DNA from: Friedmanniella luteola
Lineage (GTDB): Bacteria; Actinomycetota; Actinomycetes; Propionibacteriales; Propionibacteriaceae
Assembly (NCBI RefSeq): GCF_900105065.1
Contig: NZ_LT629749.1
Span: 4,154,001 to 4,218,000, forward strand
Length of the DNA: 64,000 nucleotides
Reading direction: 5' to 3'
In this document: piece by piece, positions 8,033-19,966 of the stretch
Layout of the letters: each line of letters opens with the position of its first letter
Numbering within the stretch: the first letter of the stretch is position 1
The notes under the pieces: model-generated
Seen by the model: the letters and a program-made list of their open reading frames with translations, nothing else
The model's database searches: none
What the model was told of the DNA's origin: nothing
Position numbers and translations under genes: made by a program

Positions 8033-9520
8033 TCAGAGCTTGTCGAACCACGGCTCCAGGCGCTGGTAGGCCTCCATGAAGAGGGCGTACTCCCCCGCGT
8101 AGCGGTCGTGGCGGGCCCCGTCGGGCGTCTGCGAGGTGAGCTCCTCGGAGAACCGGCCGGCGACCTCGAAGTCGTCGAAGATGCCGACGCCCACCCCCCC
8201 GACGATCGCCGCACCCACCGCCGTCGCCTCGTCGACCAGGTTCCGCCGGGTCACGGGTACGCCCCAGACGTCGGCGAACACCTGCAGCAGCAGCTGCGCG
8301 TTGGCGGCCCCGCCGATGGCGTCGACGGCCGTGATCGGGGTCCCGTTCTCGACGAACGCCAGCAGCCCGGTGTAGAGGTTGAAGGCCACCCCCTCGAGCA
8401 CGGCGCGCGTCAGGTGGGCCGGACCGTGGTGGCGGCCGAGACCGGCGAAGACCGCCCGCGCCGCCGGGTTCCAGTAGGGCGAGCGCTCCCCCAGCAGGTG
8501 CGGCAGGAAGTAGAGCCCGTCCTCGCTGGCCTGCACGTCGGCGGCCTCGGCGAGCAGCCGCCCGTACCGGTCGTCCTGGCCCGGGGCGAGGGTGTCGATC
8601 ACCCACTCCAGCGAGGCACCGCCGGCCTGCATGGTGGCGGTGGGCACGTAGCGGCCGGGGAGCACGTGGTTGAACGTCATGCTGCGCATCTGCGGGTCGT
8701 GCAGGGGCGCGTCCGCCGCCACGGACACCCAGGAGGAGGAGCCGAGGTAGGCGTAGGCCCCGGACTCCGGCCCCAGGATGCCGGCGCCGAGGGCGCCCAT
8801 CGGGCCGTCCCCGCCCCCCATCACCACGGGCGTGCCGGCGGCCAGGCCGGTCGCGGTGGCCGCCTCGGCACTCACCCGGCCGACGACCGCCGTCGAGGCG
8901 ACGATGTCCGGGAACAGCGACCCGGGCAGCGAGGACGCGTCCAGCAGCTCGTCGGACCAGCGCCCGGCCGCCTGGTCGTAGGCGTTGGTGCTGGAGGCGT
9001 CGGACGGGTCGGTGGCCAGCACCCCGGTGAGCCGGAAGGCCACGTAGTCCTTCGCCAGCACGACCTTCTCGGCGCGGGCGAAGGCGTCCGGTTCATGATC
9101 ACGGACCCACATGATCTTGGACAGCGAGTACGTCGGGTTGAGCCGGTGGCCGGTGATCGCGTAGCCGCGCTCCATCCCCACCTTCTCCACCAGGGTGGCG
9201 GTCTGGGCGACCGAGCGCGTGTCGGCCCAGATGATGGCGGGCCGGACGGGGACCCCGGCGCCGTCCAGCAGGACCGCGCCCATCATCTGGCCCGAGAAGG
9301 AGACGACCTCGACGTCGGCCGGCGCGACGGCGGCCTGCGCCAGCAGGTCCCGGGTGGCCCGGCAGACGGCGTCCCACCAGTCCCCGGCGTCCTGCTCGGC
9401 CTTGCCGCGCGGGCCGAAGTCGGTGCCGTAGGTGGAGGTGACGGCGGCGACGACCCGGCCCGCGTCGCTGACCAGGGTCGCCTTGTCGCCGGTGGTGCCC
9501 AGGTCGTGCGAGATGATCAT
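8033..9520 (-). CDS. xylB: xylulokinase-like FGGY carbohydrate kinase
   Basis: 495-residue ATP-dependent sugar kinase. The N-terminal FGGY domain starts SHDLGTTGDKATL (phosphate loop), with VSFSGQMMG and IIWADTRS; the C-terminal domain contains YLGSSSWVS, GGASLEW, EGVAFNL and GGAANAQLLLQVFADV (adenine-binding region). Closest in pattern to XylB, phosphorylating a ketopentose or similar ketose; the exact substrate cannot be told. The ATG overlaps the stop of the cupin isomerase by ATGA, so it is translationally coupled within operon A. A normal C-terminus (EPWFDKL) shows that the deletion behind it did not damage the kinase. Confidence 0.88.
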   Translation of the reverse strand: MIISHDLGTTGDKATLVSDAGRVVAAVTSTYGTDFGPRGKAEQDAGDWWDAVCRATRDLLAQAAVAPADVEVVSFSGQMMGAVLLDGAGVPVRPAIIWADTRSVAQTATLVEKVGMERGYAITGHRLNPTYSLSKIMWVRDHEPDAFARAEKVVLAKDYVAFRLTGVLATDPSDASSTNAYDQAAGRWSDELLDASSLPGSLFPDIVASTAVVGRVSAEAATATGLAAGTPVVMGGGDGPMGALGAGILGPESGAYAYLGSSSWVSVAADAPLHDPQMRSMTFNHVLPGRYVPTATMQAGGASLEWVIDTLAPGQDDRYGRLLAEAADVQASEDGLYFLPHLLGERSPYWNPAARAVFAGLGRHHGPAHLTRAVLEGVAFNLYTGLLAFVENGTPITAVDAIGGAANAQLLLQVFADVWGVPVTRRNLVDEATAVGAAIVGGVGVGIFDDFEVAGRFSEELTSQTPDGARHDRYAGEYALFMEAYQRLEPWFDKL

Positions 9521-10134
9521 GGTCGCGGGAGCAGCTGGTAGCCGCGGTGGTCGGGGTTCTCGCGCACCCGGTAGCCCCCGCCGTCCACCTCGACCAGCGA
9601 GCGCATCCCGCCGGCCCGCTCGATGATCGCGTAGTCCTGGCCGGCGTCGGCGGCGTAGGTGAACAAGGTGGCGAAGCGCTCGTCGCCGACGTTGACGCTG
9701 CGGTGCACCCAGTGGCCGGGCACGTAGACGGCCTTGCCCGGGGTGACCTCGATGACGTGGCTCTGACCGTCGAGGGTGTCCAGGACCATCACGCCGCGAC
9801 CACTCAGCCCGACGTAGAGCTCGGAGCGGTCGGAGACGGCGTGCAGGTGGCCGCGGGTCATCGCGTACTCCTGGCCGACGGTGCCGGGCTCGAGGACGCT
9901 GATGCCGGTGATCAGCCCACCCGGGCCGTCCTCGGTCTGCGTGGTCTCCACCCAGTACACGGGGCTGCCGTCGTCGGTCGAGAGGCGGTGGGCGTACGCG
10001 TCGGGGTCGCGGTAGAGACCCTCCAGGTCGGGCAGGAACTTCTCGTACCGGCCGTTGCTGCCCTCCAGCCGGCCCTCCTCGGGCCGCAGGGTCAAGGTCA
10101 CCGGCGGCACCGGCCGCACCTCGGGTTCGGTCAT
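9517..10134 (-). CDS. cupin-type glucose-6-phosphate isomerase
   Basis: 205-residue cupin enzyme of the PF06560 family interconverting glucose-6-phosphate and fructose-6-phosphate (or acting on a related sugar phosphate). Family motifs are very clear: PVYWVET, SVLEPGTVGQEYAMTRGHLHA (metal-binding His residues), YVGLSGRGVMVL, YVPGHWVHRSVNVGDE, FATLFTYAADAGQDYAII and NPDHRGY. The metal is bound by the two His of GHLHA, a Glu and the later His. Both ends overlap neighbours by four bases (ATGA). In a catabolic operon it may feed a pathway-specific ketose phosphate into glycolysis. Confidence 0.9.
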   Translation of the reverse strand: MTEPEVRPVPPVTLTLRPEEGRLEGSNGRYEKFLPDLEGLYRDPDAYAHRLSTDDGSPVYWVETTQTEDGPGGLITGISVLEPGTVGQEYAMTRGHLHAVSDRSELYVGLSGRGVMVLDTLDGQSHVIEVTPGKAVYVPGHWVHRSVNVGDERFATLFTYAADAGQDYAIIERAGGMRSLVEVDGGGYRVRENPDHRGYQLLPRP

Positions 10135-11138
10135 GTCTGCTCCTCCGTGCTCACGGTCGTCCCGGTCCCGCTGAGCCAGCGGGCGGGGTTGGTCTCCAGC
10201 AGGGCCGTCACCAGGGCCGGTGAGGCCGCGCGCTCCAGCCGCGGCAGCACGCGCTCCCCCAGGTGGGCCAGGCCCGGCATCCCGCCGTACCCGCGGTAGC
10301 GGGTGGCCCGGGCCACGTCCCCGCCCAGCAGCAGGCGCTCGGTCGCGCCCTGCTCGGCGGCGCGCAGCAGGCAGTCCAGCAGCAGGCTGTCCGGCCAGCG
10401 CTGGCTGCGGGCCCAGCCGTCGTAGCCGAGGTAGGCGCCGGCGGCGGCCAGCTCGGCGTGCAGGCCCGGGTCGGGGTTGCGGTCGACGTGGGCCAGGGCG
10501 ACGGCGGAGGCGGGCACGCCGAGCACCTCCAGCGTCGCCAGCACCTCGAACGTGGCGCTGCCGTGCTCCAGGTGAACCAGGACGGCCGCCCCGGTCCGCG
10601 CCCAGGTGGCGGCGACCGCGGCCAGCACCCGCTGCTCGAAGGCTCCGATGCTCCAGTAGCCGATCCCGGCCTTGACCACGGCCGCGCGCACCGGGCCGCC
10701 GTCCGGGCCGACCGCGCGAGGGCCCCGTCCAGGACCGTCGACGGCGGGCTGGCCGTCGGTGACGTCGGCGGTGAACCGCTCGGCCAGCTGGTCCTCGGTC
10801 AGCTCGAGCAGCCAGTGCCCGGCTCCGTAGTGGGGCTCGCGGTGGGCGCCGGTGGTGGCGACGACGTGCAGGCCGCTGGCCGCGGCGAGGCGGGCCAGCG
10901 CCTCGGGACGACGACCGAGCCCCGTCGGGGTGGCGTCGACGACCGCCGGGAAGCCGGAGGCGCGCAGCGAGACGGCCTCGACGAGGCTCCGGGGCTCGTC
11001 GTCCAGCGCGTCGCCGGGCAGCAGCGGGCTGACCTGGAAGAAGTGCTCGTGGTAGTTCGTCCTCCCCAGCGTCACCGCGGGGACGTCGCCCAGCACCGTG
11101 CTGACCGCCGGGTCCGGCGGGCCGGCCAGCGGGCTCAC
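10131..11138 (-). CDS. phosphotriesterase-family metal hydrolase (probable lactonase)
   Basis: 335-residue TIM-barrel amidohydrolase. Metal ligands are visible in family order: HEH (NYHEHFF), the carboxylated Lys in VVKAGIGYWS, His in VLVHLEHG, His in ALAHVDRNPD, and Asp in LLLGGDVAR. The C-terminus has the NPARWL signature. Members next to sugar dehydrogenases and aldolases are usually lactonases opening sugar-acid lactones; that role is inferred from context. The GTG start at 11138 overlaps the upstream stop as GTGA, and its own stop overlaps the isomerase start. Confidence 0.82.
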   Translation of the reverse strand: MSPLAGPPDPAVSTVLGDVPAVTLGRTNYHEHFFQVSPLLPGDALDDEPRSLVEAVSLRASGFPAVVDATPTGLGRRPEALARLAAASGLHVVATTGAHREPHYGAGHWLLELTEDQLAERFTADVTDGQPAVDGPGRGPRAVGPDGGPVRAAVVKAGIGYWSIGAFEQRVLAAVAATWARTGAAVLVHLEHGSATFEVLATLEVLGVPASAVALAHVDRNPDPGLHAELAAAGAYLGYDGWARSQRWPDSLLLDCLLRAAEQGATERLLLGGDVARATRYRGYGGMPGLAHLGERVLPRLERAASPALVTALLETNPARWLSGTGTTVSTEEQT

Positions 11139-12061
11139 CGGTGCTCGGACGCGATCCGGCCGAGCTCGTCGACGGTCGCCGGCGGCATCGGGATGTCGAA
11201 CACCTCGGCGACGGCCTGCGTCCAGCCGTGCACGAAGTAGAGCCAACCGTCCTCGACGTGCAGCCCGCGGGCGCCCTGCTGCGCCAGCGCCTGGTGCCAG
11301 AAGTCCAGCGGGCCGCGGTAGTTGAACTCCCAGACCACCCCGCGCTCGGGGAAGCGGACCGATCCCGAGACCGGGGAGCCGGGCCGGTCCTTGCCCATGC
11401 CGGTCGCGTTGACGACCAGGCTGGTCGGCGGCAGCTCCGCCACCAGGGCGTCGACGTCGTCGGCGTCGCGCGTGACGACGTAGCGGACAAGGTCCGCGGG
11501 CAGCCCGGCGCGCTGGTGGACGGCGCGGGCGTGGTCCAGCGGTTCCGGGGTGAGCGCGGTGCAGGTGATCCGCACCGGTCGGTCGGACCGGCCGCCGAGC
11601 TGGTGGCTGAGCGCGGTGCCGGCCCCGCCCGAGCCGAGGACGAGCGCCTCACCGCCGCCGGCGGCGAAGTGGTCGGGGGCCAGGAACTCCTCGAGGGCCA
11701 GCCGCGCGGTGACCGGGTCCTTGGCGCTGCCCACCAGCCGGTCGCCGCGCTTGGCGATGCACGAGATCTCCCCGAAGGTCTCGGCCAGCTCGTCGCAGTC
11801 GTCGAAGAGGTCGCGGGCGGCGGCGTGCACGGCCATCTTGTGGGTGGTGACCAGGGCGCCCCACTGCTCGGGGTCGTCACGGATGGCGGTGACGACGTCG
11901 CGGTAGACCTTCGGCGGGGCGTCCAGCGGCACGTCGTGCCCGACCAGCCGGCGGGTGGGGAGCCCGAGGGCGTCGGCCCACTCGGGGAACACGGTGCGGA
12001 TCGACGAACCGGCGGTGCTCACCCCGACGAAGCCCATGGAGGAGGCGGAGCCGCGGGTCAC
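11135..12061 (-). CDS. shikimate dehydrogenase-like NAD(P)-dependent oxidoreductase
   Basis: 308 residues. The N-terminal substrate domain contains FVGVSTAGSSI and GALVTTHKMAV (catalytic Lys region), followed by a Rossmann fold with LVLGSGGAGTALS and the LVVNATGMGKD motif of shikimate dehydrogenases. It lacks the usual context of aromatic biosynthesis: it sits in a sugar-acid operon between an aldolase and a lactonase, and ends with a long tail (LYFVHGWTQAVAEVFDIPM). A catabolic dehydrogenase acting on a polyhydroxy acid is more likely. Start GTG overlaps the aldolase stop (GTGA). Confidence 0.78.
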   Translation of the reverse strand: MTRGSASSMGFVGVSTAGSSIRTVFPEWADALGLPTRRLVGHDVPLDAPPKVYRDVVTAIRDDPEQWGALVTTHKMAVHAAARDLFDDCDELAETFGEISCIAKRGDRLVGSAKDPVTARLALEEFLAPDHFAAGGGEALVLGSGGAGTALSHQLGGRSDRPVRITCTALTPEPLDHARAVHQRAGLPADLVRYVVTRDADDVDALVAELPPTSLVVNATGMGKDRPGSPVSGSVRFPERGVVWEFNYRGPLDFWHQALAQQGARGLHVEDGWLYFVHGWTQAVAEVFDIPMPPATVDELGRIASEHR

Positions 12062-12750
12062 GCCTGCGCCCCCCGTGCCCGGCGGGCGGCGTCGCTGAAC
12101 TGCCGGGCGTTGGCGGTGATGGTCGCCCAGTCGCCGTCGGCCATGGCCGTCGCCGGGCAGAGCTCACCGCCGGCGCCGACGGCGACCGCCCCGGCCGCCA
12201 GCCACTCCGCGAGGTTGCCGGCGTTGACGCCACCGGTGGGCACGAAGTCGACCTGCGGGAACGGCCCGCGCAGCGCCTTGAGGTAGGCGGGCCCGCCGAG
12301 GGAGGCGGGGAACAGCTTGACCACGTGCACGCCGAGCCGGAGCGCGGTCATCACCTCGCTGGGGGTGAGGGCGCCGGAGAGCACGGTGACCCCGCTGCCG
12401 AGCATGGCGCCGGCGAGCTCGGCGTCCGTGCCCGGGCTGACCAGGAACTCCGCGCCCGCCTCGACAGCCTCGCGGGCCTGCCGGGGCTCCAGCACGGTGC
12501 CGGCCCCGAGGTGGACGGCGTCCCCGTGCCGGCGGCGGACCTCCCGGATCACGGCGGCAGCGTCGGGCGTGCTGTAGGTGATCTCGATGCCGGTGACGCC
12601 ACCAGCCACCAGCGCGTCGGTGGCCAGGATGCCCGCCTCGGCGGTCGGGGCGCGGAGGACGGCGACGACGGTGGCGGCGCGCAGACCGCGGAGGTCCTTC
12701 GACGAGCTCGAGACGGCGTCGTCGGCGGCGCGGTCGGTCGGGTCGGTCAT
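12058..12750 (-). CDS. bifunctional KDPG/KHG-type aldolase
   Basis: 230-residue class I aldolase splitting 2-keto-3-deoxy-6-phosphogluconate or a related 2-keto-3-deoxy acid phosphate into pyruvate and an aldehyde. Seen: VVAVLRAPTA, GIEITYSTPDA (catalytic Glu), GAGTVL, FLVSPGTD, VVKLFPAS (Schiff-base Lys) and FVPTGGVNAGN. The N-terminal 18 residues are an acidic Ser-rich extension. Both ends overlap neighbours by four bases. The only carbon-carbon-cleaving enzyme in operon A, so the pathway probably ends in pyruvate. Confidence 0.88.
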   Translation of the reverse strand: MTDPTDRAADDAVSSSSKDLRGLRAATVVAVLRAPTAEAGILATDALVAGGVTGIEITYSTPDAAAVIREVRRRHGDAVHLGAGTVLEPRQAREAVEAGAEFLVSPGTDAELAGAMLGSGVTVLSGALTPSEVMTALRLGVHVVKLFPASLGGPAYLKALRGPFPQVDFVPTGGVNAGNLAEWLAAGAVAVGAGGELCPATAMADGDWATITANARQFSDAARRARGAQA

Positions 12751-13721
12751 CGGCGGCCTCCGGGCAGCGGGACGAGGTGCGGCGGCTGGTCGCCCCGCAG
12801 GTGGGCGAGCACGGCGTCGACCGCGCCGCGGCCCATGCCGTCGACCGCCTGCACCGTCTGCGCCGCCGAGTGCGGGGTGAACAGCGTGCGGTCGAGCAGG
12901 TCGTCGGCGAGCAGCGGGTTGGCGTGGTCGCCGGACTCGCTGCCCAGCACGTCGGAGGCGTAGCAGCGCAGCCGTCCGGCGCGGAGCGCCCCCGCCAGGG
13001 CCGGTTCGTCGACGAGCGCGGCCCGCGCGGTGTTGACCAGGACGAGGTGGGGCCGGACGAGTCCGAGGAGGTGCTCGTCGACGACGACCTCCTCCCCCGG
13101 GGCGTGCAGCGAGATGACGTCCGAGCGGCCGGCCAGGGCGTCGAGCTCGACGCCCTCGATCCCGAGCCGTTGCAGCTCGGCCGGCGGCACCCAGGGGTCG
13201 AAGCCCAGCAGCGTGCTGCCGAACCCGCCGAGCCGGGCGGCGACGGCGCGGCCGATCCGCCCGAGGCCGACGATGCCGACCGTCAGCGTTCCGAGCTCGC
13301 GGGTGCGCTGGACGGCCCACCGGCCGGCGCGGACACCGCGGTCTCCCGGGGCCACGTCCCGGAGGGCGGCGAGCACGAGGGCCAGAGCGTGGTCGGCGAC
13401 GGCGCCGGTGTTGGCGCCCGGGGTGTTGGTGACGAGCACCCCGCGGGCAGCGGCGGCCTCGAGGTCGACGGCGTCCACGCCGACGCCGTAGCGGGCGACG
13501 AGGTGCAGGCCGGGGGCGGCGTCGAGGTGGGCCGCGCTGACCGGGCCGGTGCCCGCGATCCAGGCCGTGGCGTCGGCGAGCAGGGGCCGGAGCACGTCGA
13601 GCTCGTGGGTGGAGGGCCCGGTGACGATGCGGCAGCCGGCCGCCTCCAGCTCGCCCGCCAGATCGAGGTCGCCGGAGGAGAAGGACCGGCTGGTGACCAG
13701 CACGAGGGGCGACGACGGCAC
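12747..13721 (-). CDS. D-isomer-specific 2-hydroxyacid dehydrogenase
   Basis: 324-residue NAD-dependent dehydrogenase, first gene of operon A. Seen: VARYGVGVDAVDL, NTPGANTGAVADHAL, the Rossmann motif VGIVGLGRIGRAVA, LVNTARAALVD (catalytic Arg in ARA), and FTPHSAAQT with the catalytic His. It would interconvert a 2-hydroxy acid and a 2-keto acid. The GTG at 13721 lies six bases after a TACCTT -10 box, so the message is probably leaderless. Its stop overlaps the aldolase ATG. Confidence 0.88.
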   Translation of the reverse strand: MPSSPLVLVTSRSFSSGDLDLAGELEAAGCRIVTGPSTHELDVLRPLLADATAWIAGTGPVSAAHLDAAPGLHLVARYGVGVDAVDLEAAAARGVLVTNTPGANTGAVADHALALVLAALRDVAPGDRGVRAGRWAVQRTRELGTLTVGIVGLGRIGRAVAARLGGFGSTLLGFDPWVPPAELQRLGIEGVELDALAGRSDVISLHAPGEEVVVDEHLLGLVRPHLVLVNTARAALVDEPALAGALRAGRLRCYASDVLGSESGDHANPLLADDLLDRTLFTPHSAAQTVQAVDGMGRGAVDAVLAHLRGDQPPHLVPLPGGRR

Positions 13722-13727
13722 CCGTTG

Positions 13728-13766
13728 AAGGTAGTCCTGTACGTACAGGAGGTCAACCACTACACT
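13728..13766. promoter_or_regulatory. divergent leaderless promoters with a 16-bp palindromic GntR operator
   Basis: TCCTGTACGTACAGGA (13735-13750) is a perfect palindrome. On the minus strand it occupies the 17-base spacer of TTGACC (13756-13751) and TACCTT (13733-13728), which drives operon A with the GTG six bases downstream. On the plus strand TACACT (13761-13766) lies six bases before the GntR ATG at 13773, with the palindrome covering its -35 region. A repressor bound here would block both directions; the adjacent GntR is the obvious candidate. Confidence 0.8.
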
Positions 13767-13772
13767 GCCCGG

Positions 13773-14558
13773 ATGACCAGCGCGATCGACCGGACGTCGC
13801 CGCTGCCGTTCTACTACCAGCTGAAGCAGATCCTGCTCACCGAGATCCGCGAGCGCGACCTCGCGGCCGGCGACCGGCTGCCCGGCGACCACGAGCTCTG
13901 CGCCACCTTCGACGTCTCGCGGACCGTCGTGCGGCAGGCGCTGGCCGAGCTGGAGACCGAGGGCGTCATCGTCCGGGTCAAGGGCCGCGGCACCTTCGTC
14001 GCGCCCGAGAAGACGGCCGAGCGCCTGGTCCAGTCCCTCACCGGCCTCTACGAGGACGTCGCCGCCCGCGGCTCCCACCTGCGCAGCGAGGTGCGCCGCC
14101 AGGAGGTCGTGCCGGCCGACGAGCAGATCGCCGCCCAGCTGGAGATCCAGCCCGGCTCGCCGGTCGTGGTGGTCGAGCGGCTCCGCTTCGTCGACGACGA
14201 GCCCTGGGTGCTGGCCACCACCTACCTGCCCCACGACGTCGCCCCCGGCCTGGTGGACGACGACCTCACCGACCAGTCGCTCTACGCGCTGCTGGAGCGG
14301 CGCTACGACGTCCACCTCACCCACGGCCGCCGCGGGGTCGAGGCCGCCGTCGCCGGCGACGCGCTGGCCGCCGACCTGGCGATCAAGCCGGGCGACCCGG
14401 TGCTCGTGCTGCGCAGCACTTCCCACGCCGGCGACCGGCCGGTGGAGATGTTCGTCGCCTACCACCGCGGCGACCGCAGCCGCTTCGAGGTGACGCTCAG
14501 CCGCACCCGGCCGACCGACGCGCAGCTCGAGCCGCTGATGCGGGTCACCGCTCCCTGA
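13773..14558 (+). CDS. GntR-family (HutC subfamily) transcriptional regulator
   Basis: 261 residues: an N-terminal GntR winged helix (PFYYQLKQILLTEIRE, AGDRLPGDHELCATFDVSRTVVRQALAELETEG, VKGRGTFVA) followed by a UTRA ligand-binding domain (about 95-250, with VVVVERLRFVDDEPW and PVEMFVAYHRGDRSRF). It probably represses operons A and B and itself through TCCTGT-N4-ACAGG palindromes at 13735 and 19843, released by a sugar or sugar-phosphate ligand (inference). The transcript seems leaderless. Confidence 0.93.
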   Translation: MTSAIDRTSPLPFYYQLKQILLTEIRERDLAAGDRLPGDHELCATFDVSRTVVRQALAELETEGVIVRVKGRGTFVAPEKTAERLVQSLTGLYEDVAARGSHLRSEVRRQEVVPADEQIAAQLEIQPGSPVVVVERLRFVDDEPWVLATTYLPHDVAPGLVDDDLTDQSLYALLERRYDVHLTHGRRGVEAAVAGDALAADLAIKPGDPVLVLRSTSHAGDRPVEMFVAYHRGDRSRFEVTLSRTRPTDAQLEPLMRVTAP

Positions 14559-14672: not shown

Positions 14673-15317
14673 TCAGGCTCGCCCGCTCCCCTCCATCCAC
14701 GTGAGGACGTCGAGCACCCTCAGGACTGACACGTCCTCGGGCAGGGCCGCTCGGGCTCGGAGGTCGAGCAGCCGATGGTGAAGAGCGCCGCCATCGGCTC
14801 GCAGCGCAGCGTGCAGCGGGATCCACAGGTCGTCACCGCCACCCATCAGATGGTCCTTGATGACCGAGTCGAAGATCGGTATCAGGCGGGGACGCTTCCT
14901 CGCCATCAACTTGCTCGCCGTGGTCGGTCCGAGCTCGGGAAGCCCGCGCAGCGTCTTCCACAGCTCCCAGGCGCTCGGTAGACCGTCGCGATCGATCGAC
15001 CGGAGTTCGACGAGGTCGAGATCCCTCGGGATGGCCTGCAGGTGGCGGTTGATCACGTCGGCCTGAGGCCCGAGGATCTCGACGACCGCCCGTCCCTTCA
15101 CCTCGATCCCCAGCAGTGCGACGGATACCAGGTCGTCAGCGGTGAAGCGGTCGGCGTCCGCCTCCCGCCTCCCGTTCGGGTCGAAGGTGTCCCAGGCGCC
15201 GCCGGTGTACCCGGCGTTGTGACCGGACAGCGGAGCGTAGTAGCGGCGCAGGACCGTCGACGCTCGCTCCTCAGAGCCGGTGTCAAGAAGGGCAGGCAGG
15301 GTCAGGACGGCGGTCAT
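14673..15317 (-). CDS. DUF6308 family protein
   Basis: 214-residue protein of unknown function. The ATG at 15317 has AGGAAG upstream. Recognisable family features are RYYAPLSGHNAGYTGGAWDTFD near the N-terminus, FTADDLVSVALLGIEV, and KLMARKRPRLIPIFDSVIKD in the second half. The latter resembles the helix-hairpin-helix-like core of the DUF6308 family. It is a monocistronic minus-strand gene between the GntR gene and operon B, with strong hairpins upstream; no link to sugar use is evident. Confidence 0.7.
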   Translation of the reverse strand: MTAVLTLPALLDTGSEERASTVLRRYYAPLSGHNAGYTGGAWDTFDPNGRREADADRFTADDLVSVALLGIEVKGRAVVEILGPQADVINRHLQAIPRDLDLVELRSIDRDGLPSAWELWKTLRGLPELGPTTASKLMARKRPRLIPIFDSVIKDHLMGGGDDLWIPLHAALRADGGALHHRLLDLRARAALPEDVSVLRVLDVLTWMEGSGRA

Positions 15318-15400
15318 GATCTTCCTTGTCGCTGGAGGTCCGGCCGACGCTAGCCTCCCAGGACCACCGCGTGCTGGAACTCCTGCACCCGCCGCCGAAC

Positions 15401-15458: not shown

Positions 15459-16808
15459 TCAGATGTGCTGGACCCCCAGCCCGAGCACCGGCGCGACCAG
15501 CTCGAGCCGCCGCCGCAGGTCGCCGGTGGCGAGCACCGCGTGGTGCGAGGGCAGGGCCTCGACGTAGCGGTAGCCGTCCGCGACGCGCAGCACGGCGCCG
15601 TTGAGGCAGTCGGAGTTCTCGAACTGGTGGTAGCCCGTCAGGTCGGCCGGCGTCACGGTCAGGGTGTCCATCGTCGACGTGAGCTTGACGATCGTCGTGT
15701 CCCCCTCGGCGATCCGGGCGTCGAGGGCGTGCGCGTTGGGGTCGACGATCTCCAGCACCCGCGGCTGGACCGACCAGGACGTCGCGAACGACGGCGGCAC
15801 CACCCCGAGGAAGCCGCAGTGGGCCACCAGGATGTGGTCCGCCGGCCGCTCCCGGACGGCCGGGAAGTACGGGATCTTCTCGTGCTTGAGCGCGGCGTCA
15901 CCCATGAGGAACGGGTACAGGTTGGTCATCATCACCGGCGCCTGCAGGGTCTGCCAGGTGAGGAACTCCGTCATCATCGACGTCAGGTCGGCCTCGCAGC
16001 CCCACATCAGCCCGCGCTCCTCGAACAGCAGGCTCCAGGCCAGGCACGGCGTCGTCGGGGAGGTCATGGACTCGTTGAGGCAGTTGATGCCCGCGGCGAT
16101 GACGTCGGGGGTCTCGTCCAGCTCGTCGGACAGCGCGAGGTAGAGCCGCAGCGCCTCGGCCCGGGCCCGCCAGGCCAGGGCCCCCAGCTCCACCCCGGAG
16201 GAGATCCGCTCGTGCGCGTCGACGACGCGCGCCTCGGGCACGGCCGCCGCCCGGGCCGCGAGCTCGCGCCACGAGCGCCGCTCCACCGTGACGCCGAGGC
16301 GCTCCTGGAGGTCGGCGACGCACTCCTCCTCCCACCAGTAGAAGCGCTTGAAGATGTCGGGCTGCATGCCGGCGCCGAGGTCGTCGAGGTAGGCCAGCAT
16401 CCGCGAGCGCGGCAGCGTCTGGCGCACCGCCAGCCCGCGCAGCACGTCGACCAGCTCCTGCCGCGACGTCGGCGCCACGGTGTCGACGCCGCGTCGGCGC
16501 AGGTAGTCCCGGATCTCCCAGTCCCACATCGAGACCGTGCCGAACTCCGACGTCACGACCAGCAGCGGCACCCGGACCCGCCGGAACTCCTCCAGCAGGC
16601 GGTAGGCCAGGCCGCTCATGTCCGGCACGACGACGGCCGTGACGTCGTCGGCCACCGGGTCGCAGACCCAGGCAGCGGGCCGCCACTCGACCAGCCCGTC
16701 GGACAGCTCGACGAGGGCCGCCAGCTGGCGGGTGAAGGACTCCCCCGGCTCCCGCTCGAGCGAGACCGGCAGCAGGACCGGCCGGACCAGGGTCACCGCG
16801 GCGGTCAC
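15459..16808 (-). CDS. L-fucose/L-arabinose isomerase family protein
   Basis: 449-residue sugar isomerase-like protein, last gene of operon B. A Rossmann-like N-terminal region (VTAAVTLVRPVLLP, TAVVVPDMSGLAYRLLEEF) is followed by the isomerase core: DLGAGMQPDIFKRFYWWEEEC, AGINCLNESMTSPTTPCLAW, FEERGLMWGCEADL (metal-binding Glu region), and a C-terminal beta-domain with FLGVVPPSFA. The fold suggests aldose-ketose isomerisation; the true substrate is unknown. The GTG start overlaps the alcohol dehydrogenase stop (GTGA). Confidence 0.75.
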   Translation of the reverse strand: MTAAVTLVRPVLLPVSLEREPGESFTRQLAALVELSDGLVEWRPAAWVCDPVADDVTAVVVPDMSGLAYRLLEEFRRVRVPLLVVTSEFGTVSMWDWEIRDYLRRRGVDTVAPTSRQELVDVLRGLAVRQTLPRSRMLAYLDDLGAGMQPDIFKRFYWWEEECVADLQERLGVTVERRSWRELAARAAAVPEARVVDAHERISSGVELGALAWRARAEALRLYLALSDELDETPDVIAAGINCLNESMTSPTTPCLAWSLLFEERGLMWGCEADLTSMMTEFLTWQTLQAPVMMTNLYPFLMGDAALKHEKIPYFPAVRERPADHILVAHCGFLGVVPPSFATSWSVQPRVLEIVDPNAHALDARIAEGDTTIVKLTSTMDTLTVTPADLTGYHQFENSDCLNGAVLRVADGYRYVEALPSHHAVLATGDLRRRLELVAPVLGLGVQHI

Positions 16809-19841: not shown

Positions 19842-19871
19842 ATCCTGTCATTACAGGTTTCGGCCTGTCAA
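19842..19871 (-). promoter_or_regulatory. operon B promoter with GntR-type palindrome
   Basis: TCCTGTCATTACAGGT (19843-19858) matches the operator at 13735 (TCCTGT-N4-ACAGG) in every arm position but the last base. On the minus strand TTGACA (19871-19866) is followed after 18 bases by CAGGAT (19847-19842), so the palindrome covers spacer and -10 of the probable operon B promoter. A half site CCTGTCA follows at 19864. Confidence 0.65.
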
Positions 19872-19934: not shown

Positions 19935-19966
19935 TTGACAAACTTTCTTACATTGAGTTAGGAAGT
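19935..19966 (+). promoter_or_regulatory. operon C promoter with ROK-type operator
   Basis: TTGACA (19935-19940), an 18-base spacer and TAGGAA (19959-19964) form a plausible promoter for the ABC operon. The 25 bases 19942-19966 (ACTTTCTTAC ... AGGAAGT, an imperfect dyad) agree at 19 of 25 positions with 27928-27952 just upstream of the ROK regulator gene, so both are probably ROK binding sites. Confidence 0.65.

Follow-up and report, generated by a model that had tools for sequence, protein, structure and literature searches.

A candidate GntR operator inside the promoter spacer of a divergent sugar-acid catabolic operon in Friedmanniella luteola

In a 64,000-nucleotide stretch of the Friedmanniella luteola genome (hereafter the window), a perfect palindrome lies between a catabolic operon and a divergently transcribed gene for a GntR-family regulator. 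This layout raises the question of whether the palindrome is an operator through which the regulator could control both the operon and its own gene. Family and PDB searches of the cluster proteins gave enzyme classes only, with the operon assigned to sugar-acid breakdown; judging by gene spacing, the operon genes are probably co-transcribed. The features under discussion are the following.

8033-12750, minus strand: remaining catabolic operon, encoding a KDPG/KHG aldolase, a shikimate-dehydrogenase-like protein, a phosphotriesterase-like hydrolase, a GPI-type cupin and an FGGY (xylulokinase-like) kinase
12747-13721, minus strand: D-2-hydroxyacid dehydrogenase gene, first of the catabolic operon (Pfam 2-Hacid_dh and 2-Hacid_dh_C), with a GTG start and predicted to be leaderless
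13721-13719, minus strand: GTG start of the dehydrogenase, 6 nt (CAACGG) after the -10
13733-13728, minus strand: -10-like TACCTT of the catabolic operon, 2 nt off the operator core
13750-13734, minus strand: 17-bp promoter spacer TCCTGTACGTACAGGAC, of which the palindrome makes up 16 bp
13735-13750, no strand: perfect 16-bp palindrome TCCTGTACGTACAGGA, putative GntR operator, its register kept in orthologous clusters
13736-13749, no strand: operator core CCTGT-N4-ACAGG, inside the palindrome
13756-13751, minus strand: TTGACC, -35-like element of the catabolic operon, 1 nt off the operator core
13761-13766, plus strand: -10-like TACACT of gntR, followed by GCCCGG (6 nt) and the ATG at 13773
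13773-14558, plus strand: gntR, divergent from the operon, encoding a GntR HTH (Pfam 1.2e-19) and a UTRA domain (1.6e-38)
19844-19857, no strand: second exact operator CCTGTCATTACAGG, flanked by oxidoreductase genes (minus) and an ABC sugar transporter (plus)

Other proteins of the neighbourhood are less readily classified. The one encoded at 11135-12061 had no Pfam match at the cut-offs used and is a distant shikimate-dehydrogenase relative, and the one at 15459-16808, likewise without a Pfam match at these cut-offs, is isomerase-like by eye only. A gene for a DUF6308 protein (14673-15323; Pfam 1.9e-60) is located between gntR and the isomerase-like gene.

The original prediction had placed the palindrome in a 17-bp spacer between TTGACC and TACCTT, with the GTG of the operon six bases past its -10 and the ATG of gntR six bases past TACACT. 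All spacer positions proved exact, and both start-codon distances are those found in the sequence. On the gntR side, the -35 position at 17-bp spacing corresponds to 13738-13743, which reads TGTACG (weak) and falls within the palindrome. The pattern TTG[AC]CN-N16-18-TANNNT occurs a single time in the window, both strands scanned. A simple sigma-70 scanner called no promoter in 13500-14000 at its limit of four TATAAT matches, TACCTT scoring three of six.

The palindrome as such carries little weight. The window holds eight perfect 16-bp palindromes versus about five expected from base composition, and CCTGTN4ACAGG at up to one mismatch gave 53 matches in the genome versus 88 for a reversed-pattern control. 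Since both occur at about chance frequency, we dropped rarity as evidence, and the weight rests on placement; by the counts given below, the placement of the site and its conservation exceed chance. The exact 16-mer has a single copy in the 4.72-Mb genome, the next-best place having two mismatches, and CCTGTN4ACAGG has three exact copies there. Two of these three belong to the present cluster, where they are separated by 6.1 kb and both lie between divergent genes. The remaining copy (L034), presumably near ribosomal genes, as the adjacent frames resemble proteins S7 and S12, lacks a TTGAC-type hexamer 1 nt away and was treated as a chance occurrence.

To follow the site beyond this genome, we assembled GntR relatives from 24 loci of named genomes, twelve of which (L010-L021) encode proteins 50-68% identical, and from a second search, which covered 96 genomes and matched in 33; six of them, the window's own not counted, reached 51-91% identity. 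The register was defined as -35 hexamer, 1 nt, CCTGTN4ACAGG, 2 nt, -10 hexamer. This rule came from 19 loci, and nine further loci were fetched once it was fixed, giving 28 scanned in all (positions 4000-26000 in the case of the window). A hexamer matching TTGACA in at least five of six positions ended 1 nt before the operator at 19 of the 23 distinct exact sites (the rule-suggesting loci gave 15 of 18 and the later ones 4 of 5), the background frequency being 0.0015 per hexamer and strand; many of these sites come from related species and are not independent, so the figures are counts rather than independent trials. At up to one operator mismatch the same hexamer was present at 23 of 45 sites, and in F. 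luteola outside the cluster at none of 13, these being one exact site plus 12 of the 50 places with one mismatch. Two more near-exact sites in the later loci have TTGAAA and TTGCCC at the offset and TACACT as the -10.

Counted by locus, a 17-bp-register site (operator with at most one mismatch, TTG hexamer with at least four of six matches) is held by 16 of the 28. Two of the remaining 12, G003 and G017 (loci L082 and L083), have a version with an 18-bp spacer, and ten have neither; no in-register site at up to one mismatch was found in L084, L015, L017, L018, L019, L021, L154 (a locus of only 4.7 kb), L155 or L157. L017 does have an in-register site with two mismatches, and L018 and L021 carry, by eye, degenerate operator copies after TTGACA. 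G016 (L081; GntR 65% identical) has an exact operator outside the register; there the dehydrogenase gene is preceded by GGAGGTATTTCCATG, which suggests a ribosome-site-led start. The membership of L158 is unsure, because its GntR is 50% identical and its gene surroundings differ. As a separate observation, operator-like copies stand in tandem in the Blastococcus and Serinicoccus clusters (L017 868-905 and L021 918-960), where one copy immediately precedes a TTGAC hexamer and the other, degenerate, follows it.

The genes behind the composite of promoter and operator vary. It lies upstream of the dehydrogenase gene in the window, G018 and G014, and in G014 also upstream of an SDR gene beside gntR, with a GTG 6 nt past the -10. 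It precedes aldolase, cupin and kinase genes in three Saccharopolyspora species (Pseudonocardiaceae), and a cupin gene in three Plantactinospora species (Micromonosporaceae). The motif-conservation check proposed with the original prediction thus came out in its favour, the register recurring in orthologous clusters both within the genus and in Saccharopolyspora and Plantactinospora. Because these other actinobacterial relatives keep the same layout, we read the palindrome as very probably the divergent GntR regulator's own binding site.

The -10 element is similarly fixed. A.A...T hexamer was found at the set offset in 22 of 24 promoters, and in 0-5 of 24 at each of ten neighbouring offsets, these 24 having been picked from 33 rows after inspection, with.A...T at the offset in one of the nine dropped. 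The rows dropped were window 19844 and L079 17868 (TTAGCA), L017 868 and 892, L152 10119 and, with a two-mismatch operator and TGGACA, L010 2834, L011 1704, L012 1641 and L013 1684; none of the nine has a start codon at 6-7 nt. L153, whose -35 matches at only four of six positions, was retained. The -10-like hexamer is absent from L010 8315 and L152 14679.

How widely does the arrangement extend? Scanning the class for TTGAC-N0-12-CCTGTN4ACAGG produced 23 matches in 20 of 394 genomes versus 21 for the reversed control, and five matches had a 2-base gap, two of them the window and G018 and the remainder scattered. As the scan neither peaked at this gap nor exceeded its control, the register is not general among actinobacteria. 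The TTGAC pattern with two mismatches matched 20 of 20 genomes and is too loose to discriminate, and searches around G431 and G418, in guessed families, were negative in 22 and 5 genomes, respectively, and carry no weight. Operators with other centres (CATG, CCGG, CATT) are also present in this regulon. The class-wide scan further brought up, in G492 (L132, L138), two divergently oriented TTGACA plus CCTGT-N4-ACAGG sites at a distance of 65 bp, with ATAG/CTAT centres, which perhaps belong to another regulator's system.

Within the order, the composite site tracks the regulator. The pattern TTGAN{2,4}CNTGTN4ACANGNNTANNNT matched in 5 of 391 genomes (G000, G018, G014, G003 and G017), at one place each and always beside a gntR orthologue; since it was written after the G003 and G017 sites were known, the positives are partly circular; this does not affect the lack of matches in the remaining 386 genomes. 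Reversing the composite pattern gave one match in the same 391 genomes, and a slightly looser pattern, in a genus scan, returned the same five of 20 genomes. The composite site is therefore conserved beside the orthologous regulator. G016 has a gntR orthologue and an operator and lacks the composite; in G042 (51%), operator and composite are both absent.

The congeners also differ in how many operators serve the two directions. In the window, G018 and G014, a single operator stands for both, and the gntR -10 begins 11 nt beyond it. G003 and G017 have a wider intergenic region and two operators, one per promoter: the dehydrogenase promoter carries CTTGTCCGGACAGG in its 18-bp spacer, and the gntR side a copy, CCTGTACGGACAA, with one (G003) or two (G017) mismatches, 12 nt before the gntR -10. 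Two operators at separated promoters fit the prediction for a repressor that needs to cover each promoter. The register, the co-occurrence with gntR and this operator-per-promoter arrangement in two congeners all support, on comparative grounds, the original view of the palindrome as an operator common to both promoters.

The second exact operator sits differently relative to its promoter-like hexamers than the 13735-13750 site, and has TTAGCA in place of the TTGAC flank. Toward its minus-strand genes (Gfo/Idh, SDR, zinc-ADH and isomerase-like, the last by eye only), it overlaps a -10-like CAGGAT that stands 18 bp past TTGACA. On the plus strand, TAGCAT, itself 18 bp past TTGTCT, adjoins it on the 5' side. 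G018 retains the second operator, CAGGAT, TAGCAT and the minus-strand TTGACA, with TTGTCA replacing TTGTCT. Nearby, at 19935-19966, an imperfect inverted repeat, TTGACAAACTTTCTTACATTGAGTTAGGAAGT, lies beside TTGACA upstream of the ABC substrate-binding protein; it is identical in G018 and is possibly another regulator's site.

We next consider the start codons, as the original prediction had both messages without a 5' UTR. The gap from the -10 to the dehydrogenase start is 6, 6, 7, 6 and 6 nt in the window, G018, G014, G003 and G017, that is, 6-7 nt in five of the six congeners with a close gntR orthologue (window counted), while the intervening bases change, as from CAACGG in the window to TCCCTG in G018. 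On the gntR side it is 6 nt in the window, G018, G014 and G017 and, by eye, 7 in G003. The G014 SDR gene has a gap of 6 nt, and its GTG aligns with the Met of the window homologue. Over all ATG and GTG triplets in the window, TANNNT-N-RTG has 6 and 8 cases at gaps 6 and 7, with 0-4 at any of the other gaps between 3 and 11. These spacings resemble those of leaderless actinobacterial genes, and in the TANNNT hexamer 6 nt before ATG or GTG we see no sequence difference from them: in Mycobacterium tuberculosis, TANNNT is centred 7-12 bp 5' of mapped starts (PMC3898074), and leaderless genes are frequent among Actinobacteria, their share exceeding twenty percent (PMC3160421). Among the 24 promoters, a start codon lies 6-7 nt past the -10 in all four of the genus and in none of the 20 others, so register and leaderless start are separable, and by this comparison leaderlessness is a separate lineage-level trait rather than part of the switch. 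The claim thus holds up within the genus, where both messages probably begin at or within 1-2 bases of the start codon, and does not carry over to the same-register promoters outside it. It could still be that the genus messages are not leaderless and that translation uses a later in-frame start codon or transcription comes from further upstream. The window dehydrogenase indeed has an in-frame GTG six codons downstream, and N-terminal length varies among congeners. Given the recurrence of the 6-7 nt spacing in five species, the Met alignment in G014 and the 14 window cases at gaps 6-7, we regard this as unlikely.

Taken together, we consider it highly probable that a HutC/UTRA-type GntR autorepressor blocks both promoters through the 13735-13750 operator and is released by an inducer. 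Without inducer, a GntR dimer on CCTGT-N4-ACAGG would occupy the spacer of the catabolic operon together with the -35 position of gntR and would sterically keep RNA polymerase off both promoters; a pathway metabolite binding the UTRA domain would then release GntR. Through the operator at 19844, this regulator would also govern the remaining half of the cluster.

Other readings of the same bases were weighed. The TTGAC and -10-like flanks might be parts of an extended GntR recognition site, the real promoters lying elsewhere: TTGACA contains TGACA, akin to the operator half-site, the flank distance is fixed, and L152 14679 is flanked by TTGACA and, on the opposite side, by its mirror TGTCAA. 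Exact or near-exact operators nevertheless occur without the flank (window 19844 with TTAGCA, the gntR-side copies of G003 and G017, and L152 10119), and start codons stand 6-7 nt past the -10 in six genus promoters, which makes an extended site quite improbable. GntR might instead activate from within the spacer, or co-bind with RNA polymerase, as MerR-type regulators act in the promoter spacer. Yet the best solved relatives, DasR and YvoA, are named repressors, and the spacer has a normal 17 bp (18 in G003 and G017) with fair hexamers, so that no promoter distortion would be needed; we hold activation to be very improbable. As for a chance palindrome in a GC-rich genome, the eight found in the window speak for it, but the register in the later-fetched loci and the co-occurrence with gntR contradict it, and we give it practically no credence. 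Blockage of both promoters by GntR thus remains our preferred explanation.

Beyond this locus, we lean slightly toward a portable unit combining operator and promoter, about 29 bp long, whose strict register has persisted in different actinobacterial families and which is set before whichever gene (dehydrogenase, aldolase, cupin, kinase or SDR) leads the rearranged cluster. If so, the change from one operator to two when the promoters separate would amount to a natural experiment on repression by spacer occupancy. Shared versus separate operators, and leaderless versus other promoters in one register, make such repression easily testable. The analysis also tentatively links a DNA site with a HutC-type regulator scoring below every named NCBIfam cut-off, and yields a predicted regulon for a sugar-acid pathway, with two sites in the window.

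With regard to known systems, the regulator belongs to the HutC (UTRA) group of the GntR family, both Pfam domains scoring above curated cut-offs. All 23 NCBIfam models matched for named HutC-type equivalogs (HutC, PhnF, TreR and others) stayed below theirs, the HutC model reaching 141 of 220 bits. The best PDB matches were DasR (2.4e-36) and YvoA (4e-33), which similarly combine a GntR HTH with UTRA, a regulator beside sugar catabolic genes and a palindromic operator; we take CCTGT-N4-ACAGG to differ from the DasR site. Literature searches found neither CCTGTNNNNACAGG nor TGTCATGACA together with GntR, and combined wordings gave no match, other wordings leading to GabR, CrtR and other regulators. 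Operators inside promoter spacers are a known kind, and the effector domain of AraR differs from that of UTRA-type GntR proteins. The Bacillus subtilis AraR consensus is At(T/A)tGTaCGTAcaa(A/T)T (PMC4218819), which has the TGTACGTACA core in common with the window palindrome, and the AraR DNA-binding domain is of the GntR type. Closer in layout is PxpR of Corynebacterium glutamicum, a GntR repressor divergent from its catabolic operon, with a leaderless gene and an inverted-repeat site (PMC13274462). There, however, 143 bp separate the predicted site from the start of pxpR, and autoregulation was judged unlikely by the authors (PMC13274462), whereas in the window one site falls in both promoters. 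CrtR of C. glutamicum, of the MarR type, is a divergent autorepressor over the -10/-35 region, with crtR cited as leaderless (PMC5401885); it differs in regulator family, and crtE transcription starts 114 nt before its start codon. Divergent autorepressors and leaderless actinobacterial genes are thus already known kinds, and the switch itself is ordinary in type.
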